Assembly: GCF_030148435.1 (NCBI RefSeq)
Contig: NZ_JASBTN010000007.1
Location: forward strand, 1-64,000
Length of the DNA: 64,000 bases
Direction: 5' to 3'
From: Aliiroseovarius sp.
GTDB lineage: Bacteria > Pseudomonadota > Alphaproteobacteria > Rhodobacterales > Rhodobacteraceae
The notes under the pieces were generated by a model, which had not been told where the DNA came from, did not search any database, and worked only from the letters and a program-made list of their open reading frames with translations. Made by a program: the position numbers and the translations under genes. How positions within the stretch are numbered: position 1 is the stretch's first letter; each line of letters opens with the position of its first letter. This document shows positions 1 to 10,321 of this stretch, piece after piece.

Positions 1-201
1 GCCCATGACCAGGGATATGTTACCTCAGCGGCCTATTCGCCGATCCTGGAAAGCTCGATCGGGTTGGGTTTCGTCAAAGGCGGGTTCGACCGCATGGGTG
101 AGCACCTGCGCCTTGTAAACCCCTTGGAGAGACAGGAAATCATTGTCGAAATCACCAGCCCGCATTTTGTCGATCCGGAAGGAGAGAAGCTCCGTGCATA
201 A
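1..201 (+). CDS. soxA: Sarcosine oxidase alpha subunit, C-terminal fragment (GcvT-like C-terminal region); truncated by window start
   Basis: Frame 1 reads AHDQGYVTSAAYSPILESSIGLGFVKGG...PHFVDPEGEKLRA* and stops at 199-201, overlapping the start of a gamma-subunit-like gene. Confidence 0.75.
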   Translation, partial: AHDQGYVTSAAYSPILESSIGLGFVKGGFDRMGEHLRLVNPLERQEIIVEITSPHFVDPEGEKLRA

Positions 202-745
202 GTTGAAACCCATCACCCCGCTTGGGGCCGATGCCCCGCGTATCGACAGCATCGGCGGCCTGACGATCACCGAAAACACGGATATGGCGCTGGCTTCGGT
301 GACGGCCCGCCGGGGCCAGCTTCCGGCCCTGCGGGAGGCCCTCGTCCTTCCCCTGCCAGAGGTCGGGAAGTCCGCAGGCACCAGTGACTTCATCGCGTTC
401 TGGACCGGGCCAGAACAATGGATGATCTCGGCCGCGCATGACAGGCACGAGTTGCTGGCCGCAGAGCTGAAAGCCATGGTCGGGGCAAGCGCCTCGGTGG
501 TGGAACAGACCGACGCCTGGTGCCGGTTCGACGTGTCGGGACCGACCCTGGCCGACCTGTTTGAACGGCTGAGCAATATCCCCGTGCGGCGCATGGCGGC
601 CGGGGATGTCATTCGTGGCACGGTGGAGCATCTGGGCGCCTTCCTGTGGCGGGTCGCCGAGGACAGGATGGCCGTGATCGCCCCACGCTCCTCCGCGGCA
701 TCGCTCCATCATGCGCTGGCCGCTGCCGCGCGGTCGATCGCCTGA
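194..745 (+). CDS. soxG: Sarcosine oxidase gamma subunit
   Basis: GTG start at 194 overlaps the soxA stop; MHKLKPITPLGADAPRIDSIGGLTITE... with SoxG-like length (~183 aa) and position after alpha subunit. Confidence 0.8.
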   Translation: MHKLKPITPLGADAPRIDSIGGLTITENTDMALASVTARRGQLPALREALVLPLPEVGKSAGTSDFIAFWTGPEQWMISAAHDRHELLAAELKAMVGASASVVEQTDAWCRFDVSGPTLADLFERLSNIPVRRMAAGDVIRGTVEHLGAFLWRVAEDRMAVIAPRSSAASLHHALAAAARSIA

Positions 746-748
746 ACC

Positions 749-1756
749 TCAGTCATAGGGCAGCGCATCGCTGTCCTTGACCCGCATCGAGTTCTTCGCA
801 CGCCGGTCGCTGATCGGCGTGACCCCGTAGGTTTCGCGGTAGTGGCGCAGGAAGGTGCCCGGCGTGTCATAGCCGACCATATAGGCGACCTCGGTCACGG
901 GCGTGTTGGAATAGAGAACCAGCTGACGCGCCTGGCTCATGCGCATCTTGCGATAGTATTTCAGCGGACTCTGGCCGGTTGCCTCCTTGAAACTGCGTTC
1001 CAGCGTCCGGGTGGACAGGCCGACCACCTCGGCCACTTCGCTGATCTGCACCGGGCTTTCGATATGATCCGCGAAATGCTGGATCGCGCGTGCAACCGGT
1101 TTGGGCAGAAGATCCAGGCTTTTGCCGGTGGAATGGGCCGGGGTCTTCTGTGCCGTCGCGGCGCTGCGGATGAACGGGTGCTGGAACCAGCAGGCGACCT
1201 CGGCCATGACATCGCCGCCCAGGCGCCGTTCGATCAGGGTCAGCATGTGATCGAAAGCCGCCGAGGCGCCGGAGATGGTGGTGAACCCCCGCTCTTCGCA
1301 GACCACGGTACTGCGGACCGCTATGTCGGGAAAGGCGCTTTGGAACGCAGCCTCATAGCACCAGTGGACCGAAAGCGGCACCTCGCCGGTCAGTCCGGTG
1401 TCGGCCAGGGCGAAGACCCCGGCGCTGATTGCGCCCAGCTCTGTCCCGGACCGGCGCAGCCGTTGCAGCGCGGCGTTCGCCCGCGCGCGGTTTGCGAACC
1501 GGGCGTTCGGGCTGGCGGTGAACAGGATCAGGTCCAATGCTTCGATCTCTGCCAGAGTGCGATCCGGCGCGAATGTCACCCCGGCCGAGGAGGTCACTGC
1601 CCCGTCCCGTTCGGCGATTACAGTCCAGCGGAACGCCTCCTGCCCGGAAATCTCGTTTGCGGCCCGCAGGGGTTCGATACAGGAGGTCAGACAGGCCATC
1701 GGGAACCCCGGAAAAAGCAGGATCCCAAGGGTGAAGGGGGCGGGATTTGGGGTCAT
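749..1756 (-). CDS. GlxA-type transcriptional regulator (DJ-1/GATase1-like N-terminus plus AraC HTH); GbdR/SouR-like by context
   Basis: PFTLGILLFPGFPMACLTSCIEPLRAAN...N-terminus; C-terminal AraC HTH (EVAEVVGLSTRTLERSFKEATGQSPLKYYRKMRM); convergent with soxG. Confidence 0.85.
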   Translation of the reverse strand: MTPNPAPFTLGILLFPGFPMACLTSCIEPLRAANEISGQEAFRWTVIAERDGAVTSSAGVTFAPDRTLAEIEALDLILFTASPNARFANRARANAALQRLRRSGTELGAISAGVFALADTGLTGEVPLSVHWCYEAAFQSAFPDIAVRSTVVCEERGFTTISGASAAFDHMLTLIERRLGGDVMAEVACWFQHPFIRSAATAQKTPAHSTGKSLDLLPKPVARAIQHFADHIESPVQISEVAEVVGLSTRTLERSFKEATGQSPLKYYRKMRMSQARQLVLYSNTPVTEVAYMVGYDTPGTFLRHYRETYGVTPISDRRAKNSMRVKDSDALPYD

Positions 1757-2649
1757 GAAAGCTCTCCCAATGCCATCTCGTGCGTGCATTCACGAATGCG
1801 ATCTTCCAGCAGCCGGGCGGCCGGAGACATGGTGGAATCAGCCCGGCGCAGCAGGTGAATTGTGCGTTTCGCCTGCGTATCTGCCAGCGGGCGGAAGGTC
1901 AGATTGGGTGAATATGACGCGCGAACCGCCATTTCCGGCAGGATCGTCACCCCGATTTCCGCATGCACCATGGCCAGGATCGAGGTCAGGTTGTGCGCCG
2001 ACAAAAGCGCGCGCGCGTGCAGCTCGCGGGACGGTTCGGCTCTGATTCCGGCCGACAGGCTGTTGGCGATCAGGCGTTCCCCGGCCAACTCCGCCCAGGA
2101 CACCGGCCCTGCCTCCTGCGCCAGCGGATGCGTGGGGGCGCAGATCACGCCGAACCTGTCCGACAGCAGGGGTTCGCTTTGCAGTCCGACGCCATTGTCG
2201 CCCAGGGTCGCGATGCCGATATCAACACGGTTGCGTGACAGCTCATGCAGAATCGAACTGCTGTCCATATCCCGCAACTCGATGTCCAGTTTTTTGAACT
2301 CATTGATATACCGTGAAAAAATCCGGGGAATGATGGTCCCCGCCACCGAGGGCACTGTGGCGATGCGCACATGCCCGTGCGTCGCCTTGGCATGGCCCTC
2401 GATCGCTTTCACCGTATTGTCGAACTGTTGCAGCTCCCGTTCTGCCTGTTCCAGAACGAAACTCCCCAGGGCGGTGAGCTTGTTCTTGCGGTCGGTTTCG
2501 AACAGCGGTTCGCCCAGGTGGGTTTCAAGCTGTTTCAGCATCATCGACACGGCAGAGGGGGTGCGCCCGAGCCTCTCGGCCGCGTCGCTCAGATTGCCGC
2601 TGCGGGCCACGGCCGCGAAGCCGCGTAACATCTCGATTTTCAGCGCCAT
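1753..2649 (-). CDS. LysR family transcriptional regulator
   Basis: N-terminal HTH MLRGFAAVARSGNLSDAAERLGRTPSAVSMMLKQLETHLGEPLFETDRKNKLT; divergent from the ALDH-led operon. Confidence 0.92.
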   Translation of the reverse strand: MALKIEMLRGFAAVARSGNLSDAAERLGRTPSAVSMMLKQLETHLGEPLFETDRKNKLTALGSFVLEQAERELQQFDNTVKAIEGHAKATHGHVRIATVPSVAGTIIPRIFSRYINEFKKLDIELRDMDSSSILHELSRNRVDIGIATLGDNGVGLQSEPLLSDRFGVICAPTHPLAQEAGPVSWAELAGERLIANSLSAGIRAEPSRELHARALLSAHNLTSILAMVHAEIGVTILPEMAVRASYSPNLTFRPLADTQAKRTIHLLRRADSTMSPAARLLEDRIRECTHEMALGELS

Positions 2650-2760: not shown

Positions 2761-4209
2761 ATGACTGATCTTCAAAAGAACCTGATTGCCGGCGAATGGC
2801 TGGCGGGCGTTGGCGAAATCGAAAACCGCAACCCGTCGGACCTGTCCGACCTGGTTGGCGTGTTTGCGCAGGCCAGCAGCGACCAGCTGGACGCCACGCT
2901 CGATCAGGCCCGTATCGCACAGCGCGAATGGGCAGCTTTCGGCCTGGAGCGCAAGCAGGCGGTTCTGATGGCGATCGGCAACGAGCTGATGGCGCGTGCC
3001 GAAGAACTGGGCACGCTTCTGTCGCGCGAAGAGGGCAAACCCTTTGCCGAGGGCAAGGGCGAAGTATATCGCGCCGGACAGTTCTTTACCTACTACGCCG
3101 CCGAATGCCTGCGCCAGCTGGGTGAAAACGCGGACAGCGTGCGCCCCGGCGTGGAAATCGACGTGCGCCGCGAAGCGGTCGGCACCGTGGCAATCATCAG
3201 CCCCTGGAACTTCCCGACCGCGACTGCTTCTTGGAAAATTGCGCCTGCGCTCTGCTACGGCAATGCGGTGGTGTGGAAACCGGCCAACGTGACGCCCGCC
3301 TCGGCCGTGGCCCTGGCCGAGATCATCAATCGGCAGGACATTCCCAAGGGCCTGTTCAGCCTGGTCATGGGCGCGGGCCGCGAGATCGGTCAGCGTCTGG
3401 TCGAAAGTCCCAAGGTGAATGCGATTTCCTTCACCGGTTCGGTGCCGGTGGGCAAGGGCATCGCCTCTGTCGCGATCCAGAACCTGACCAAGGTGCAGAT
3501 GGAGATGGGATCGAAAAACGCCTTGGCCGTGATGGATGACGCCGACCTTGATCTGGCCGTGACCCTTGCGCTGGGCGGCGCCTTCGGCGGCACCGGCCAG
3601 AAATGCACCGCGTCCTCCCGGCTCGTGGTCCACGAGGCCGTGCACGACGCCTTTGTCGAAAAACTGGTGGCCGGAACGCAAGCAATGAAAGTGGGCCACG
3701 CGCTGGAAGAGGGCACCCAGATGGGGCCTGTCGTCAGTCAGCAGCAGCTGTCCGAAAACCTGGCCTATGTCGACCTGGGCAAGTCGGAAGGCGCGGAACT
3801 TGCCTGCGGCGGCGCACAGCTCGACATGCCGACCCGTGGTTTCTACATGTCGCCGGGCGTGTTCCTGAACACCACAAATGACATGCGGATCAACCGCGAG
3901 GAAATGTTCGCTCCGCTGACCTCGGTGATCAAGGTCGGCAGCTATGACGAGGCGCTGGCCACGGTGAACGACACCAACTTCGGCCTGACCTCGGGCATCG
4001 TGACGACATCGCTGGCCCGCGCCACCCATTTCCGCCGCAACGCCCGGACCGGCGTCGTCACCGTGAACCTGCCGACCGCCGGCACCGATTATCATGTGCC
4101 CTTCGGTGGCCGGGGAGACAGCTCCTACGGGCCGCGCGAACAGGGCAAGGCGGCGGCGGAGTTCTACACTACCGTCAAGACCGCCTATATCAGCGCGGGC
4201 CCGGTCTGA
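2761..4209 (+). CDS. NAD(P)-dependent aldehyde dehydrogenase (alpha-ketoglutarate-semialdehyde dehydrogenase-like)
   Basis: ALDH motifs: ISPWNFPTAT, ISFTGSVPVGKGI, VQMEMGSKN (Glu), GGTGQKCTASSR (catalytic Cys). Confidence 0.93.
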   Translation: MTDLQKNLIAGEWLAGVGEIENRNPSDLSDLVGVFAQASSDQLDATLDQARIAQREWAAFGLERKQAVLMAIGNELMARAEELGTLLSREEGKPFAEGKGEVYRAGQFFTYYAAECLRQLGENADSVRPGVEIDVRREAVGTVAIISPWNFPTATASWKIAPALCYGNAVVWKPANVTPASAVALAEIINRQDIPKGLFSLVMGAGREIGQRLVESPKVNAISFTGSVPVGKGIASVAIQNLTKVQMEMGSKNALAVMDDADLDLAVTLALGGAFGGTGQKCTASSRLVVHEAVHDAFVEKLVAGTQAMKVGHALEEGTQMGPVVSQQQLSENLAYVDLGKSEGAELACGGAQLDMPTRGFYMSPGVFLNTTNDMRINREEMFAPLTSVIKVGSYDEALATVNDTNFGLTSGIVTTSLARATHFRRNARTGVVTVNLPTAGTDYHVPFGGRGDSSYGPREQGKAAAEFYTTVKTAYISAGPV

Positions 4210-5189
4210 TGCGTATCGACGGTCTGCAATATGCCAACTGGTCGGAAAAGATCTTCCGCCAGCTGAGAGAAGGGGGCGTGGACGCGATTCATGTCACCAT
4301 CGCCTATCACGAGAACTTTCGCGAAACGGTTCTGAACTTCGAGAAGTGGAACCGCTGGTTCGAGCAGTACCCGGACCTGATCATGAAAGGTCAATGGGCA
4401 TCTGACATCGACGTGGCCCGCGAAACCGGGCGCACGGCGGTGTTCTTCGGCTTCCAGAACCCGTCGCCCATCGAAGACGATATCGGCCTGATCGAGATCG
4501 TGCACACTCTGGGCGCGCGCTTCATGCAGTTGACCTACAACAACCAGTCGCTGCTGGCGACCGGTTGTTACGAGGCCGAGGACACCGGGCTTACCCGCAT
4601 GGGCAGGCAGGTCGTTCGCGAGATGAACCGCGTGGGGCTGGTGGTGGACATGAGCCATTCAGCGGACCGGTCGACCATCGAAGCGGCGGAGTTTTCCGCC
4701 CGCCCCATCGCCATCACCCACGCCAACCCGCATGACTGGTCGCCGGCCCTGCGCAACAAGAAGGACGCAGTCATTCGTGCGGTCATCGAAAACGGCGGCA
4801 TGTTCGGCTTTTCGGTCTATCCGCACCACCTGAAGGACAAGTCCGACTGCACGCTGGAAAGCTTCTGCGAGATGATCGCGCGCACGGCGGACAGATACGG
4901 GGTGGAGCATCTGGGGATCGGCACGGACCTCTGCCAGGACCAGCCTGACAGCATCGTCGAATGGATGCGCGTGGGGCGCTGGACCAAGGACATCGACTAT
5001 GGCGAAGGATCGAGATCCGCGCCCGGTTTCCCGGCCATGCCCCGCTGGTTCGAGGACAACCGCCATTTCGGCAACATCGAAACGGGCCTGCGCACGGTGG
5101 GCATGAGCACGACCGAGGTCGCCGCCATCATGGGCGGCAACTGGTACCGCTTCTTTGCAGAGAGCTTTGGTCCGCAAGCAGGACGCTGA
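4209..5189 (+). CDS. Peptidase M19 (renal/membrane dipeptidase) family protein with divergent metal-site motifs
   Basis: VDMSHSADRS, THANPHDWSP, YGVEHLGIGTDLCQD, MGGNWYRFF are M19-like; canonical DGHND and GVEG motifs replaced by DGLQY and GFQN; start overlaps upstream stop. Confidence 0.85.
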   Translation: MRIDGLQYANWSEKIFRQLREGGVDAIHVTIAYHENFRETVLNFEKWNRWFEQYPDLIMKGQWASDIDVARETGRTAVFFGFQNPSPIEDDIGLIEIVHTLGARFMQLTYNNQSLLATGCYEAEDTGLTRMGRQVVREMNRVGLVVDMSHSADRSTIEAAEFSARPIAITHANPHDWSPALRNKKDAVIRAVIENGGMFGFSVYPHHLKDKSDCTLESFCEMIARTADRYGVEHLGIGTDLCQDQPDSIVEWMRVGRWTKDIDYGEGSRSAPGFPAMPRWFEDNRHFGNIETGLRTVGMSTTEVAAIMGGNWYRFFAESFGPQAGR

Positions 5190-5253: not shown

Positions 5254-6798
5254 ATGACTGAAACATCTATGGAAATGAACAAGCAGAAAAGCCGCGTGAA
5301 CAAGCCGCTTTTCCTGATTTCGGGGGGCTTCATCGCGCTCTTCTGCGTGGCTGCGCTGGTCAATCTCGACGCGCTGTCGTCGGCTGTGGACTGGGGCTTC
5401 AATGTCTCGGCCACCTATTTCGGGCTCTACTGGCAGGTGCTGCTTCTGGCGACCTTCCTGATCGGGCTGGTCCTGTGCGTCCTGCCCGGTGGCAAGGCGA
5501 TCATGGGCGGGCTGGCCGCGCCCGAGTTCACCGTGTTCCAATGGGGCTCGATGATCATGTGTACGCTGTTGGCTGGCGGCGGTGTGTTCTGGGCGGCCGG
5601 TGAGCCGATTGCCCATTTCCTCTACTCCCCGCCGCTTTATGGCGCCGATGGGGGCACCGCAGAGGCCGTGAACCCGGCCATTGCGCAGAGCTTCATGCAC
5701 TGGGGCTTTTTGGCCTGGGCGATCCTGGGCTCGCTTTCGACCGTGATGCTGATGCACTACCACTATGAAAAGGGTCTGCCGCTGGCACCGCGCACGTTGC
5801 TGTACCCGCTGTTCGGCGACAAGGCGATCCACGGCCCGATCGGTCTGATTGCCGATGCCTCGTCGATCATTGCCGTGGTCGCGGGCACCGTGGGGCCGAT
5901 CGGCTTTCTCGGCCTGCAGGTCAGCTATGGCCTGTCCGACCTGTTCGGCATTCCCGACGTTTTCGCCACCCAGTTCGTGGTGATCGCGGGCCTGGTTGCG
6001 ATCTACACGGTCTCGGCCATGACCGGGTTGTCGCGCGGCATTCAGCTTCTGTCCAAGGTCAACGTGATCCTGGCCGCCGCCCTTCTGGTCTTCGTGCTGG
6101 TGGCCGGTCCGACCGGGTTCATCTTCGGCTCGTTCTTCTCGGGTTTCGGCACCTACCTGGGCAATTTCTTCCAGATGGCTCTGTATCGCGGTGACGCTGG
6201 CATCTTCGGCGAGCCGGGCTGGCTGGGCTGGTGGACGGTGTTCTTCTGGGGCTGGTTCATGGGCTACGGTCCGCTGATGGCGATGTTCATCGCCCGCGTG
6301 TCGCGCGGCCGGTCAATCCGGTCGATCATCATCATGCTGTCGCTTGTCGCCCCGATCGTGACCAACTTCTGGTTCACCATCATCGGCGGCACCGGCATCT
6401 CGATGGAACTGGCTGAAACCGGCACCATCTCGACCGCCTTCGAAGGCTTCAACCTGCCCGCCGCGCTGCTGGCGATCACCTCGAACCTGCCGATGGGTTT
6501 CCTGGTGTCGCTGCTGTTCCTGATCCTGACCACGATCTTCGTGGCCACCACCGGGGATTCGATGAGCTACGTGATTTCCGCTACCATGAGCGACGGAGAC
6601 AACCCGCCCGCCATGGTGCGCGTGTTCTGGGGCGTGGCCATGGGGGTGATGGCGGTGATCCTGATCTCGGTCGGGTCGGGCGGCGTGTCCAAGCTGCAAA
6701 GCTTCATCGTCGTGACCGCCGTTCCGGTGTCGCTGATCCTGCTGCCCTCGCTGTGGGATGCCCTGCGCATCACCCTGGCCAAGGGCAAGGAAAGCTGA
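5254..6798 (+). CDS. BCCT family transporter
   Basis: ~12 hydrophobic segments; WGFNVSATYFGLYWQ, FWAAGEPIAHF, WTVFFWGWFMGYGPLMAMFIARVSRGRSIR. Confidence 0.92.
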   Translation: MTETSMEMNKQKSRVNKPLFLISGGFIALFCVAALVNLDALSSAVDWGFNVSATYFGLYWQVLLLATFLIGLVLCVLPGGKAIMGGLAAPEFTVFQWGSMIMCTLLAGGGVFWAAGEPIAHFLYSPPLYGADGGTAEAVNPAIAQSFMHWGFLAWAILGSLSTVMLMHYHYEKGLPLAPRTLLYPLFGDKAIHGPIGLIADASSIIAVVAGTVGPIGFLGLQVSYGLSDLFGIPDVFATQFVVIAGLVAIYTVSAMTGLSRGIQLLSKVNVILAAALLVFVLVAGPTGFIFGSFFSGFGTYLGNFFQMALYRGDAGIFGEPGWLGWWTVFFWGWFMGYGPLMAMFIARVSRGRSIRSIIIMLSLVAPIVTNFWFTIIGGTGISMELAETGTISTAFEGFNLPAALLAITSNLPMGFLVSLLFLILTTIFVATTGDSMSYVISATMSDGDNPPAMVRVFWGVAMGVMAVILISVGSGGVSKLQSFIVVTAVPVSLILLPSLWDALRITLAKGKES

Positions 6799-6908: not shown

Positions 6909-8612
6909 ATGACCGACATTCTCTGCCGCGACCCGAACACCGTAATGCGCCTTCAGCGCCTGGGGTCCATCCACCAATCCCGCCTGTCCTTCATGCGCCT
7001 GTTGACCCGTCGCCTGGCCCGCGAGGGCTGGCGTTTCCAACAGACCGCCTTCGAGGTGAACGACAAGGGCGAGGGCCACGCGGTCTATACCGCTCATGGG
7101 CCCGACCGTGCCTATTCCCTGATCGCCTATGCCCATGACCTGCCGGCCGAAAAACGCTCGGACCGGGTCATTGCGGACGCCTGGGATGCCACGTTCACCC
7201 TGTTCGACGGGGTGCCGACTGCTGCCGACATCGAACGCCTGTCGCACAATATCCCGGTGCAGGAAGCGGGGCGCGTGACCGGCACGGAACTGTCGGTGTC
7301 GCGTGCCAACCGTTCGGTGCGCCTGTGGGAACACGTGGTCAGCGAACTGGCCGCCGGGCGCCAGCCTGATGCGGCCCAGATCGAGGCCGTGGGCTACCTG
7401 ATGCGCACAACCGCCGTCTATGGGTCCGGCAAGCTTGGCGCGGCGGATCGCGAGATGATCGCCGACCGTGCCGAATTCCGCGCACCTTTCCAGGTCGAGA
7501 TGCTGTCGGTTTACCTGACCCGCTGGTTCGTGCTGGATCTGGTGCAGCACATGGCCAACCTGCGTGCCGCCGCTGCGGGTGCCGAGGCCGCGCAGCTGTC
7601 GCCTGAGCTGGCCCGGTCCATGGGTATCGGCAACTCGACGGGTTTGGGCATGGCGCCCTTCCTGCTGAACCACCCGGTGCTGTTCAACAACTGGGTCGCC
7701 GCGCGCGAAAACGCCATTCGCGCCGTGCGCAACCTGGCCAAGGCCAGCGCCGACGAAGTTGCCCTGTTCCGTGAACTTGTGGATCGTAGCAAGCTCTCGA
7801 TCGCAGCCTGGCACAGCGAACACCCGATCCAGATCGAAAAACTTGGCGACCTGCGCGCGGATGTGGCCAAGCTGGATACCTACCTGGCGCAGCATGGTCT
7901 GACCGGTGCGCAGCCCTGGGACGTCCTCTACAGCTGGGCTGAACAGGCGCTGTCTCTGGAAGGGCAGGAATGGATCGCCTCGCTGATCCTGGAACCCTAC
8001 GGCGCGCTGGTCGATGGGTTTGCCGAGGAGATGGCCGCCGACAATACCGCCACCTTCCGCATTGCCGGGGCGATGAGCATCGGCGATCTGCGCGCGCTGC
8101 TCAAGGATGTCTACGCCTGGGCCATCGACATCGACTGGCAGGCGCCCGAGAACCGCGCCCGCGCCTGGTATGTCTCGGAAGAGAAGCTTGAACCGCGCCT
8201 GGGCGAACGGTTCGAAGAGCCGATCGAGGAATATGAACAGCCCCTGGCGCCGGGTCGTGATGCTGCGCAGCTATACCAGGCGCTGGCCCACTGGCCGGAC
8301 GAGGCACAGGTGGCCGAGTTCCTGCTGCGCCACCCCGAACACCGCCATGTTCTGCGCCGCGCCCAGATCGTGGGCCGCGCCCCTTACGCCGAGATCCGCG
8401 ACAATACGATCTCGGACCGGGTTCTGCCGATCGACATGCTGCGCTGCAAGCTGGCCTTTTTCGGTGCCACGCAGTTCGACCCTCGGTCGGACCGCTGGGT
8501 GCGCATCTGCATGTATGGAAACGCCCCGCTGCCAACCGAACTGACCGTCGAGAATGCCGATTTCTGGGTCTTTCCCGATCAGGAAACCGTGCTTGAGGAG
8601 ACCGGAGCATGA
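6909..8612 (+). CDS. Conserved-looking protein of unknown function (567 aa), no recognised family
   Basis: Long ORF with codon usage consistent with operon; stop overlaps start of next gene (ATGA); motif-like stretch GIGNSTGLGMAPFLLNHPVLFNNWV. Confidence 0.85.
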   Translation: MTDILCRDPNTVMRLQRLGSIHQSRLSFMRLLTRRLAREGWRFQQTAFEVNDKGEGHAVYTAHGPDRAYSLIAYAHDLPAEKRSDRVIADAWDATFTLFDGVPTAADIERLSHNIPVQEAGRVTGTELSVSRANRSVRLWEHVVSELAAGRQPDAAQIEAVGYLMRTTAVYGSGKLGAADREMIADRAEFRAPFQVEMLSVYLTRWFVLDLVQHMANLRAAAAGAEAAQLSPELARSMGIGNSTGLGMAPFLLNHPVLFNNWVAARENAIRAVRNLAKASADEVALFRELVDRSKLSIAAWHSEHPIQIEKLGDLRADVAKLDTYLAQHGLTGAQPWDVLYSWAEQALSLEGQEWIASLILEPYGALVDGFAEEMAADNTATFRIAGAMSIGDLRALLKDVYAWAIDIDWQAPENRARAWYVSEEKLEPRLGERFEEPIEEYEQPLAPGRDAAQLYQALAHWPDEAQVAEFLLRHPEHRHVLRRAQIVGRAPYAEIRDNTISDRVLPIDMLRCKLAFFGATQFDPRSDRWVRICMYGNAPLPTELTVENADFWVFPDQETVLEETGA

Positions 8613-9259
8613 GCCATTCGCTGAATGAAATCGAAGCCATGAGCAAACGCGCCGCCCGGGGGGCTGGACTGTCCTGGGGCTTGGCCGAGGAGGCTGCCAA
8701 GGGCACACGCTGGCTGTCCGCCTTCGGTTTTCCGGGGACCGAGATGCTGGCCGAACTCCTGACGCTCAACGACCGCATCCCGCCTGTCGATGTCTCGCCC
8801 GTATCGCTGCGCGCCGAAGTTTGGCATGCGCCCGCCCGGCGGATGAGCCCGCTGATCGCCGGGGCCTCGCTGAGCGACTGTGCCGTGCGCCTTCTGGAGC
8901 GTGGCACGATCACCATGGAAAACGTCAGCCTGCCGCTTCTGGCCGTGCCTTTCATGGGCGGGGCGGCGCTGCGGCTGGGGGTGCCGGTGGCTGCCGAATG
9001 GCAGGGCGCGCGTCTGGCGACCGATGGCCGACAGCTCTGCGTTCAAGGGGAGGCCGACGCGCTGCGCACTGCCCAGGTGGACCGGCTGGTCTTTTCGGCA
9101 CCCGCGGAAATGACCGGGCGCCGTGAACCGGTGACGCGCGCCGAGGTGTGCGAGGACAGTTGGGACACGCTGGGAGGTTTCGCCCACCGGACCTTTGCCC
9201 CTGCCACCGAGGAAAGCCGCCTCCTGGGTGCCGGTGCCGGGCTGAGCGACAACGACTGA
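8609..9259 (+). CDS. DUF3726-like protein
   Basis: N-terminus MSHSLNEIEAMSKRAARGAGLSWGLAEEAAKGTRWL resembles DUF3726 proteins; 4-nt overlap with upstream gene. Confidence 0.75.
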   Translation: MSHSLNEIEAMSKRAARGAGLSWGLAEEAAKGTRWLSAFGFPGTEMLAELLTLNDRIPPVDVSPVSLRAEVWHAPARRMSPLIAGASLSDCAVRLLERGTITMENVSLPLLAVPFMGGAALRLGVPVAAEWQGARLATDGRQLCVQGEADALRTAQVDRLVFSAPAEMTGRREPVTRAEVCEDSWDTLGGFAHRTFAPATEESRLLGAGAGLSDND

Positions 9260-9313: not shown

Positions 9314-10321
9314 ATGACCGCGACCGAAATCCTCTCCCTCGCCGAGATCGAAGATCTGGCCTTCCGAGCCCTTGTGAAAGCAGGCACGTCCGAGGCCAAC
9401 GCCCGCCCGCTGGCCGTGGCCACGGCGATGACCGAGGCCGATGGCGTCGCTTCCCACGGGCTGGCCTATATCCCGATCTACGCCCAACATGTCGACTGTG
9501 GCAAGGTGGACGGGCAGGCGGTGCCGGTGCTGGATCAACCCCGCCCGGCGGCTGTGACCGTGGATGCGGCCACCGGTTTTGCCCACAGTGCGATCGACCT
9601 GGGCTTTGAAAAACTGATCCCTCTGGCCAAGGAAATGGGTGTCGCTGTGCTGGCGGTGAACAATTCCTACAACTGCGGCGTTCTGGGCGTGCACACCCAG
9701 CGCCTGGCTCAGGCGGGGCTGTTGGGGCTGGGCTTTACCAATGCGCCCGCCTCGATCGCGCCTTCGGGCGGGGCCAGGCCGGTGGTTGGCACCAACCCGT
9801 TCTCGATCGCGGCACCCGGGCCGGAGGGTGCCGCCGCGCTGCTGATCGACCAATCCGCCAGCACCATCGCCAAGAGCGAGGTGATGAAACACGCCCGTGA
9901 GGGCAGGCCGGTGCCGGAAGGCTGGGTGCTGGACGCCCAGGGCCAGCCAACCACCGATCCCGACGCCGGGCTGAAGGGCTCCATGGTGCCCTCGGGCGGC
10001 TACAAGGGTGTGGGCATCGCGCTGACGGTCGAGCTGATGGCCGCCGCCATGACCGGCGCCACGCTGGGCGCGGTGGCAAGCCCGTTTTCGGGAACCGCCG
10101 GGGGGCCGCCGAAAACCGGCCAGTTCTTCATAGCCATCGACCCCGGCGCGACCTCGGGTGGGGTGTTTGCCGAAAAACTGGCCGACCTGATCGCGTCGAT
10201 CCGGGGCCAGGATGGCGCGCGGCTGCCTGGCGACGGCCGCCAGTCCTGCCGCATCCGCGCGGCCAGGGAGGGTGTGGCCGTGAATGCGGCATTGCTTGAA
10301 AAGGTGCGCGCCCTGATCTGA
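9314..10321 (+). CDS. Ldh_2 family NAD(P)-dependent oxidoreductase (malate/L-lactate/ureidoglycolate dehydrogenase; imine reductase-like family)
   Basis: Ldh_2 signatures: ADGVASHGLAYIPIYAQHVDCGK, VNNSYNCGVLGVHTQRLAQAGLLGLGFTNAPASIAPSGG, GTNPFSIAAP. Confidence 0.9.
   Translation: MTATEILSLAEIEDLAFRALVKAGTSEANARPLAVATAMTEADGVASHGLAYIPIYAQHVDCGKVDGQAVPVLDQPRPAAVTVDAATGFAHSAIDLGFEKLIPLAKEMGVAVLAVNNSYNCGVLGVHTQRLAQAGLLGLGFTNAPASIAPSGGARPVVGTNPFSIAAPGPEGAAALLIDQSASTIAKSEVMKHAREGRPVPEGWVLDAQGQPTTDPDAGLKGSMVPSGGYKGVGIALTVELMAAAMTGATLGAVASPFSGTAGGPPKTGQFFIAIDPGATSGGVFAEKLADLIASIRGQDGARLPGDGRQSCRIRAAREGVAVNAALLEKVRALI

Follow-up and report, generated by a model that had tools for sequence, protein, structure and literature searches.

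Genes at the locus and their spread

We analyzed a 64,000-nucleotide stretch of an Aliiroseovarius sp. genome (contig NZ_JASBTN010000007.1, positions 1 to 64,000; hereafter the window), which carries the following genes.

143..745, + strand: gamma/MgdD-type subunit, last gene of a sarcosine-oxidase-like (sox-like) operon (family match, tree)
749..1789, − strand: AraC/DJ-1-type regulator, GbdR/TmaR-like (NCBIfam, identity comparison)
1753..2649, − strand: divergent LysR regulator (Pfam, conserved neighbour)
2761..4209, + strand: aldehyde dehydrogenase (Pfam Aldedh, E = 4.7e-149; NCBIfam)
4209..5189, + strand: M19-like (GxQN class) protein, 326 aa (Pfam M19, nearest structure 2i5g, ligand map)
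5254..6798, + strand: BCCT (betaine/carnitine/choline type) transporter (Pfam, NCBIfam)
6909..8612, + strand: 567-aa protein of no known family (no Pfam match; AF2 model)
8609..9259, + strand: DUF3726 protein (Pfam; AF2, Foldseek)
9314..10321, + strand: Ldh_2 family oxidoreductase, the family of delta1-piperideine-2-carboxylate reductase (Pfam, E = 8.1e-91)

The reading frame at 4209–5189 begins with an ATG that shares one base with the TGA stop codon (4207–4209) of the aldehyde dehydrogenase gene. Its product matched the M19 family (PF01244) over the full length (E = 1.1e-70; score 238.8 bits, cut-off 26), and the nearest PDB sequence was 2i5g, an "amidohydrolase" (E = 2.5e-54). The aldehyde dehydrogenase was nearest to the alpha-ketoglutaric semialdehyde dehydrogenases of NCBIfam, with a score below their cut-off.

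When each species was scanned through a single genome, close relatives of the M19-like protein came up in SAR11, SAR116, gammaproteobacteria, and Pseudomonas, and the operon was conserved in Roseobacteraceae, Shinella, Aminobacter, Vibrio, SAR116, SAR11, and Pseudomonas. The roseobacter gene order was LysR, aldehyde dehydrogenase, M19-like, (BCCT), 567-aa protein, DUF3726, and Ldh_2, often preceded by the sox-like operon and the AraC gene; the aldehyde dehydrogenase gene adjoined the M19-like gene in most of these loci. Aminobacter and Shinella carried a betaine ABC transporter in place of BCCT, and the Shinella set ended with purU. The combination of the M19-like and 567-aa proteins, mostly with DUF3726, recurred in roseobacters, SAR11, SAR116, gammaproteobacteria, and Pseudomonas. 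Among 88 loci, the 567-aa protein was detectable in 76 (three of the other 12 stop less than 900 bases past the M19-like gene) and a DUF3726-like sequence in 62, while aldehyde dehydrogenase, Ldh_2, or Mgd genes adjoined in some loci, not all. SAR11 carried a lone three-gene core (M19-like, 567-aa protein, and DUF3726), and the nearby operon could be classed as sox-like only. A distant version of the core, consisting of a 567-like gene, a 230-aa gene weakly similar to DUF3726, and an M19-like gene, was found in Sinorhizobium and Alloyangia together with ABC transporter, Rid, and oxidoreductase or aminotransferase genes (L006:6298-9972 and L007:6591-9993).

The 567-aa protein had no Pfam match and no sequence match in the PDB, and its confident AF2 model (pLDDT 91, pTM 0.92) resembled no fold in the PDB at E ≤ 0.001; judging from this model, a new fold is possible. 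Conserved motifs of the family (6909–8612 in the window) were GYLMRTTAVYGSGKFG, GIGNSTGLGMAPF, and WYVSEEKLEPRLG. For the DUF3726 protein (AF2 model, pLDDT 93.5), all Foldseek hits with E ≤ 0.001 were to the Ldh_2 fold (lowest value 4e-5, TM ~0.5), and a weak profile similarity to the N terminus of the operon's own Ldh_2 protein was detected (P 0.008). DUF3726 and Ldh_2 are probably related, with DUF3726 the shortened form. Its best-conserved part was the C-terminal tail, GAGAGLxDND; in two copies (L076 and L096) this tail was shortened and ended in AGY. Among the papers searched, none dealt with DUF3726 or with PA5396/PA5397, the Pseudomonas genes considered below.

Metal-ligand positions in the M19-like protein and its class

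The M19-like protein was aligned to classical M19 proteins and to solved M19 chains, yielding the ligand map below. The classical residue numbers (His20, Asp22, Glu125, His198, His219, and so on) are those of renal dipeptidase.

4218..4232, + strand: strand-1 motif DGLQY, residues 4–8 (alignment)
4224-4226 and 4230-4232, + strand: Leu6 and Tyr8, replacing His20 and Asp22 (alignment)
4455..4460, + strand: Gln83-Asn84 of the GxQN motif, replacing the bridging Glu125 (Q in 31/31 class members, E in 22 classical proteins)
4656..4658, + strand: His150, equivalent of the kept His198 (conservation among relatives)
4719..4721, + strand: His171, equivalent of the kept His219 (conservation among relatives)

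In this alignment, the classical strand-1 HxD, which serves the alpha-site metal, was absent from the M19-like protein, with Leu6 and Tyr8 standing in its place, and the strand-3 bridging Glu was likewise absent, being represented by Gln83. The substrate residue His152 corresponded to Tyr110. The classical set of His198, His219, Arg230, and Asp288 was present in full, as His150, His171, Arg182, and Asp240. A preliminary description made from the DNA letters had read the three substitutions as H, D, and E to L, Y, and Q and had put the missing ligands at about half; the alignment bore out each residue call and set the number at exactly three of five. The later His motifs, which the same description regarded as retained, were confirmed as such in 44 close relatives, in which His150, His171, Arg182, and Gln83 were invariant and Asp240 was found in 43. 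Membership among the classical zinc dipeptidases was excluded because two defining features, HxD and the bridging Glu, failed.

We then asked how far the substitutions extend, using 55 M19 proteins drawn from genomes sampled across the phylum and from the loci gathered in this analysis. The bridging position was Gln in 31 proteins and Glu in 22, the two others being 3b40-like. The 31 Gln proteins, which include PDB 2i5g from Pseudomonas, shared ID-x-L, [WH]E, GxQN, and YN-x-Q motifs and formed a single group in the tree (support 96/79; 96% of bootstrap trees). Strand-1 [DE]xHxD was found in 21 of the 22 Glu-class proteins. Nine HxD regex matches in Gln-class proteins proved to be false positives, eight lying in an upstream "LHxD" helix and one in a helix of L057. 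His150, His171, Arg182, Asp240, Gln83, Tyr110, and Asn111 were invariant in both subsets of the Gln class, and Asn84, Glu35, Gln113, Glu122, and Asp125 were nearly or fully so. The class thus has a nearly invariant polar set (E35, Q83, N84, Q107, Y110, N111, Q113, E122, and D125), in which Glu35, Glu122, and Asp125 are new, near-invariant acids. The sub-group of the window protein additionally fixes His28, His34, His207, Cys214, and Cys242.

Across the Gln class in the 55-protein alignment, no replacement His, Asp, or Glu was found at the lost ligand positions, an occupancy that the preliminary description had named as counter-evidence, and position 8 drifted among Tyr, Ile, Val, Cys, and Thr. 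With the alpha-site ligands missing throughout the class, the earlier proposal that a binuclear zinc dipeptidase is improbable finds support. At the level of sequence, these results indicate that the M19-like protein belongs to a GxQN class of M19-fold proteins (2i5g type), that its alpha site is gone and was not rebuilt in the same place while the beta-site His pair was retained and a new polar set arose, and that ligand loss is a trait of the whole class rather than local decay.

Sequence comparison with structurally solved M19 proteins, which the preliminary description had recommended along with the Pseudomonas homologue, agreed with this assignment. The PA5396-type protein 2i5g is a full-length homologue that shares the IDGL...W, W/H-E, GFQN, and YN-x-Q motifs, and its lost and kept ligands are identical to those of the window protein; the trait is therefore not special to the window gene. 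The 2i5g type nevertheless belongs to another sub-group, whose members are 33–34% identical to the window protein and have Trp where the latter has His34. The PA5396-type gene lacks a 567-aa partner and lies beside DUF5943–dgcA–dgcB, a dimethylglycine catabolism locus. PA5397 was rejected as a counterpart of the 567-aa protein, being a 176-aa DUF5943 protein, and equating the window operon with the Pseudomonas gbc/dgc glycine-betaine locus was rejected because neither gbcAB nor dgcAB lies beside the window gene. Another GxQN-class M19 gene adjoins a Rieske oxygenase gene (L128:5692-8042); with this Rieske neighbour and the dgcA neighbour of the PA5396 type, the class recurs in N-methylamine-type loci.

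Renal dipeptidase and other M19 membrane dipeptidases (1itq, 3id7, and GliJ 5lwz) share the Pfam family and the strand-5, -6, and -8 motifs with the window protein but have the HxD, bridging Glu, and His152 that it lacks, and the operon differs. The 3b40-type probable dipeptidases are also ligand-losing M19 proteins, but they group among the Glu-class proteins and lost other residues (they have Leu for the bridging Glu and Gln for the His of strand 5), implying that loss of the M19 site happened more than once. This second group was represented by L122 and L123 from Pseudomonas genomes (E 1.6e-227 to 3b40), which have HxT in strand 1 in addition to the Glu-to-Leu and His-to-Gln changes.

The neighbouring Mgd-type operon and homarine

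The sox-like operon is split by the contig end, with three genes on another contig (C31; G000:C31:1-4484) and the fourth at 143–745 of the window. In the tree, its beta subunit stood apart from the two other paralogues of its own genome and grouped with a copy in another genome's gmaS–dmm–araC cluster (support 95/95), which adjoins haem-dependent N-demethylase and AraC genes. The window AraC regulator (749..1789) was 51% identical to that encoded beside the mgd operon of the gmaS–dmm cluster, and in Ruegeria pomeroyi the operon beside such an AraC gene (tmaR) is mgdABCD. In five genomes, mgd was not found within ~10 kb of gmaS; in G010, where a larger region was inspected, it lay ~14 kb away. 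A sarcosine oxidase is less likely, because the operon groups with the gmaS–dmm cluster copy and not with its own paralogues, and we assign it, from tree and neighbourhood, to the N-methylglutamate dehydrogenase (Mgd) type. GmaS had no match above the curated cut-off in the same genome, so that Mgd would need another source of N-methylglutamate.

The window block comprises five catabolic genes (aldehyde dehydrogenase, M19-like, 567-aa protein, DUF3726, and Ldh_2) and a LysR gene, and it is conserved; the Mgd-type operon adjoins it, the gene set is present in Rhodobacterales, SAR11, and SAR116, and BCCT or betaine ABC transporters accompany it. In 2026, Ferrer-Gonzalez et al. reportedly described homABCDER, five catabolic genes and a regulator with a similar spread (Rhodobacterales, SAR11, and SAR116), whose pathway is said to convert homarine to N-methylglutamate, which is handled by Mgd and yields glutamate. 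Compared with this description by gene count and spread, the window operon is probably a homABCDER-type homarine operon. According to PMC13390433, Mgd participates in homarine catabolism, for which a 2026 report is cited, and tmaR and mgd remain syntenic even where a strain lacks the upstream TMA genes.

The operon would thus import an N-methylated compound of betaine-like character, for which homarine is the most probable candidate, and turn this compound into N-methylglutamate, which Mgd would convert to glutamate. By family, the aldehyde dehydrogenase would suit oxidation of a semialdehyde and Ldh_2 reduction of a cyclic iminium carboxylate. As a matter of arithmetic only, the net conversion would be homarine (C7H7NO2) + 4 H2O -> N-methylglutamate (C6H11NO4) + formate (HCOOH) + 2[H]; for this balance one carbon has to be lost, and an N-formyl intermediate would provide it. 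The M19-like barrel, the 567-aa protein, and DUF3726 might, more tentatively, carry out the central ring-cleavage or ring-hydration chemistry.

Possible roles of the M19-like protein

Because three ligands are lost class-wide and the operon is probably for homarine, the M19-like protein is almost certainly not a dipeptidase. Most likely it performs or aids a hydration or hydrolysis other than peptide cleavage, using no more than one metal. The retained His-His-Arg-Asp set, with Glu35 and Gln83, would hold the substrate and a single metal at most, and on chemical grounds the protein might, for example, hydrate or deformylate an intermediate with an opened ring, possibly within a complex. On balance, we lean towards the combined reading of a GxQN-class M19 barrel without the dinuclear zinc site, acting as an enzyme of a homABCDER-type operon in a water-adding or deformylating role.

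The main rival to this role, which we favour less, is a non-catalytic subunit: a barrel that catalyses nothing itself but lends structure to, or binds substrate for, the 567-aa protein and DUF3726. The loss of three of five ligands and the near-constant pairing of the M19-like gene with the 567-aa gene speak for it, and DUF3726 too resembles a shortened enzyme, such that catalytic loss would have occurred twice in the gene set. However, His150, His171, Arg182, and Asp240 are nearly always retained, and the new polar set is near-invariant class-wide, even in members without a 567-aa partner; we consider such a pseudo-enzyme doubtful, if a serious candidate. An active mononuclear metallo-dipeptidase or amidase, with a site rebuilt from His150, His171, Asp240, and Glu35 or Gln83, would draw on the same survival of the beta-site His pair and strand-8 Asp and has precedent in the amidohydrolase superfamily, which includes single-metal beta-site members such as E. 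coli NagA. It appears improbable, as the bridging Glu is Gln class-wide, the substrate His152 is Tyr, and a dipeptide has no catabolic logic in this operon. Simple decay of an M19 gene would account for the lost ligands and little credence can be given to it: it is refuted by conservation, with 91% identity between genera, replacement residues that are invariant class-wide, and a gene that overlaps its neighbour within a conserved operon.

The substrate is a separate matter, since the same architecture could act on another N-methylated compound, such as trigonelline or a proline betaine. The transporter types (BCCT and ProVWX-like) indicate merely a "betaine-like" compound, and the related set with an ABC transporter and Rid proteins in Sinorhizobium and Alloyangia would also fit. 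Against this stand the adjacent Mgd-type operon in a genome where GmaS has no match above the cut-off and the agreement of gene count and spread with the reported homarine operon, and we regard a substrate other than homarine as unlikely.

With homarine as the preferred substrate, one may speculate that the M19-like protein, the 567-aa protein with its possible new fold, and DUF3726 are subunits of a single enzyme of a new type, which attacks the N-methylpyridinium ring of homarine by cleavage or hydration with no recognised oxygenase involved, the GxQN class being M19 barrels repurposed for N-methylated-amine catabolism. No recognised oxygenase was found in the operon, and the ring-opening enzyme is not evident from any; the near-constant 567-aa partner, which lacks a known fold, offers an experimental handle on this step. 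Genome annotation labels such genes "membrane dipeptidase", with the term proteolysis. If the class hydrolyses no peptides, this label is wrong in many marine genomes, SAR11 included, and the mislabelled gene probably handles an abundant plankton metabolite, homarine being a common one.
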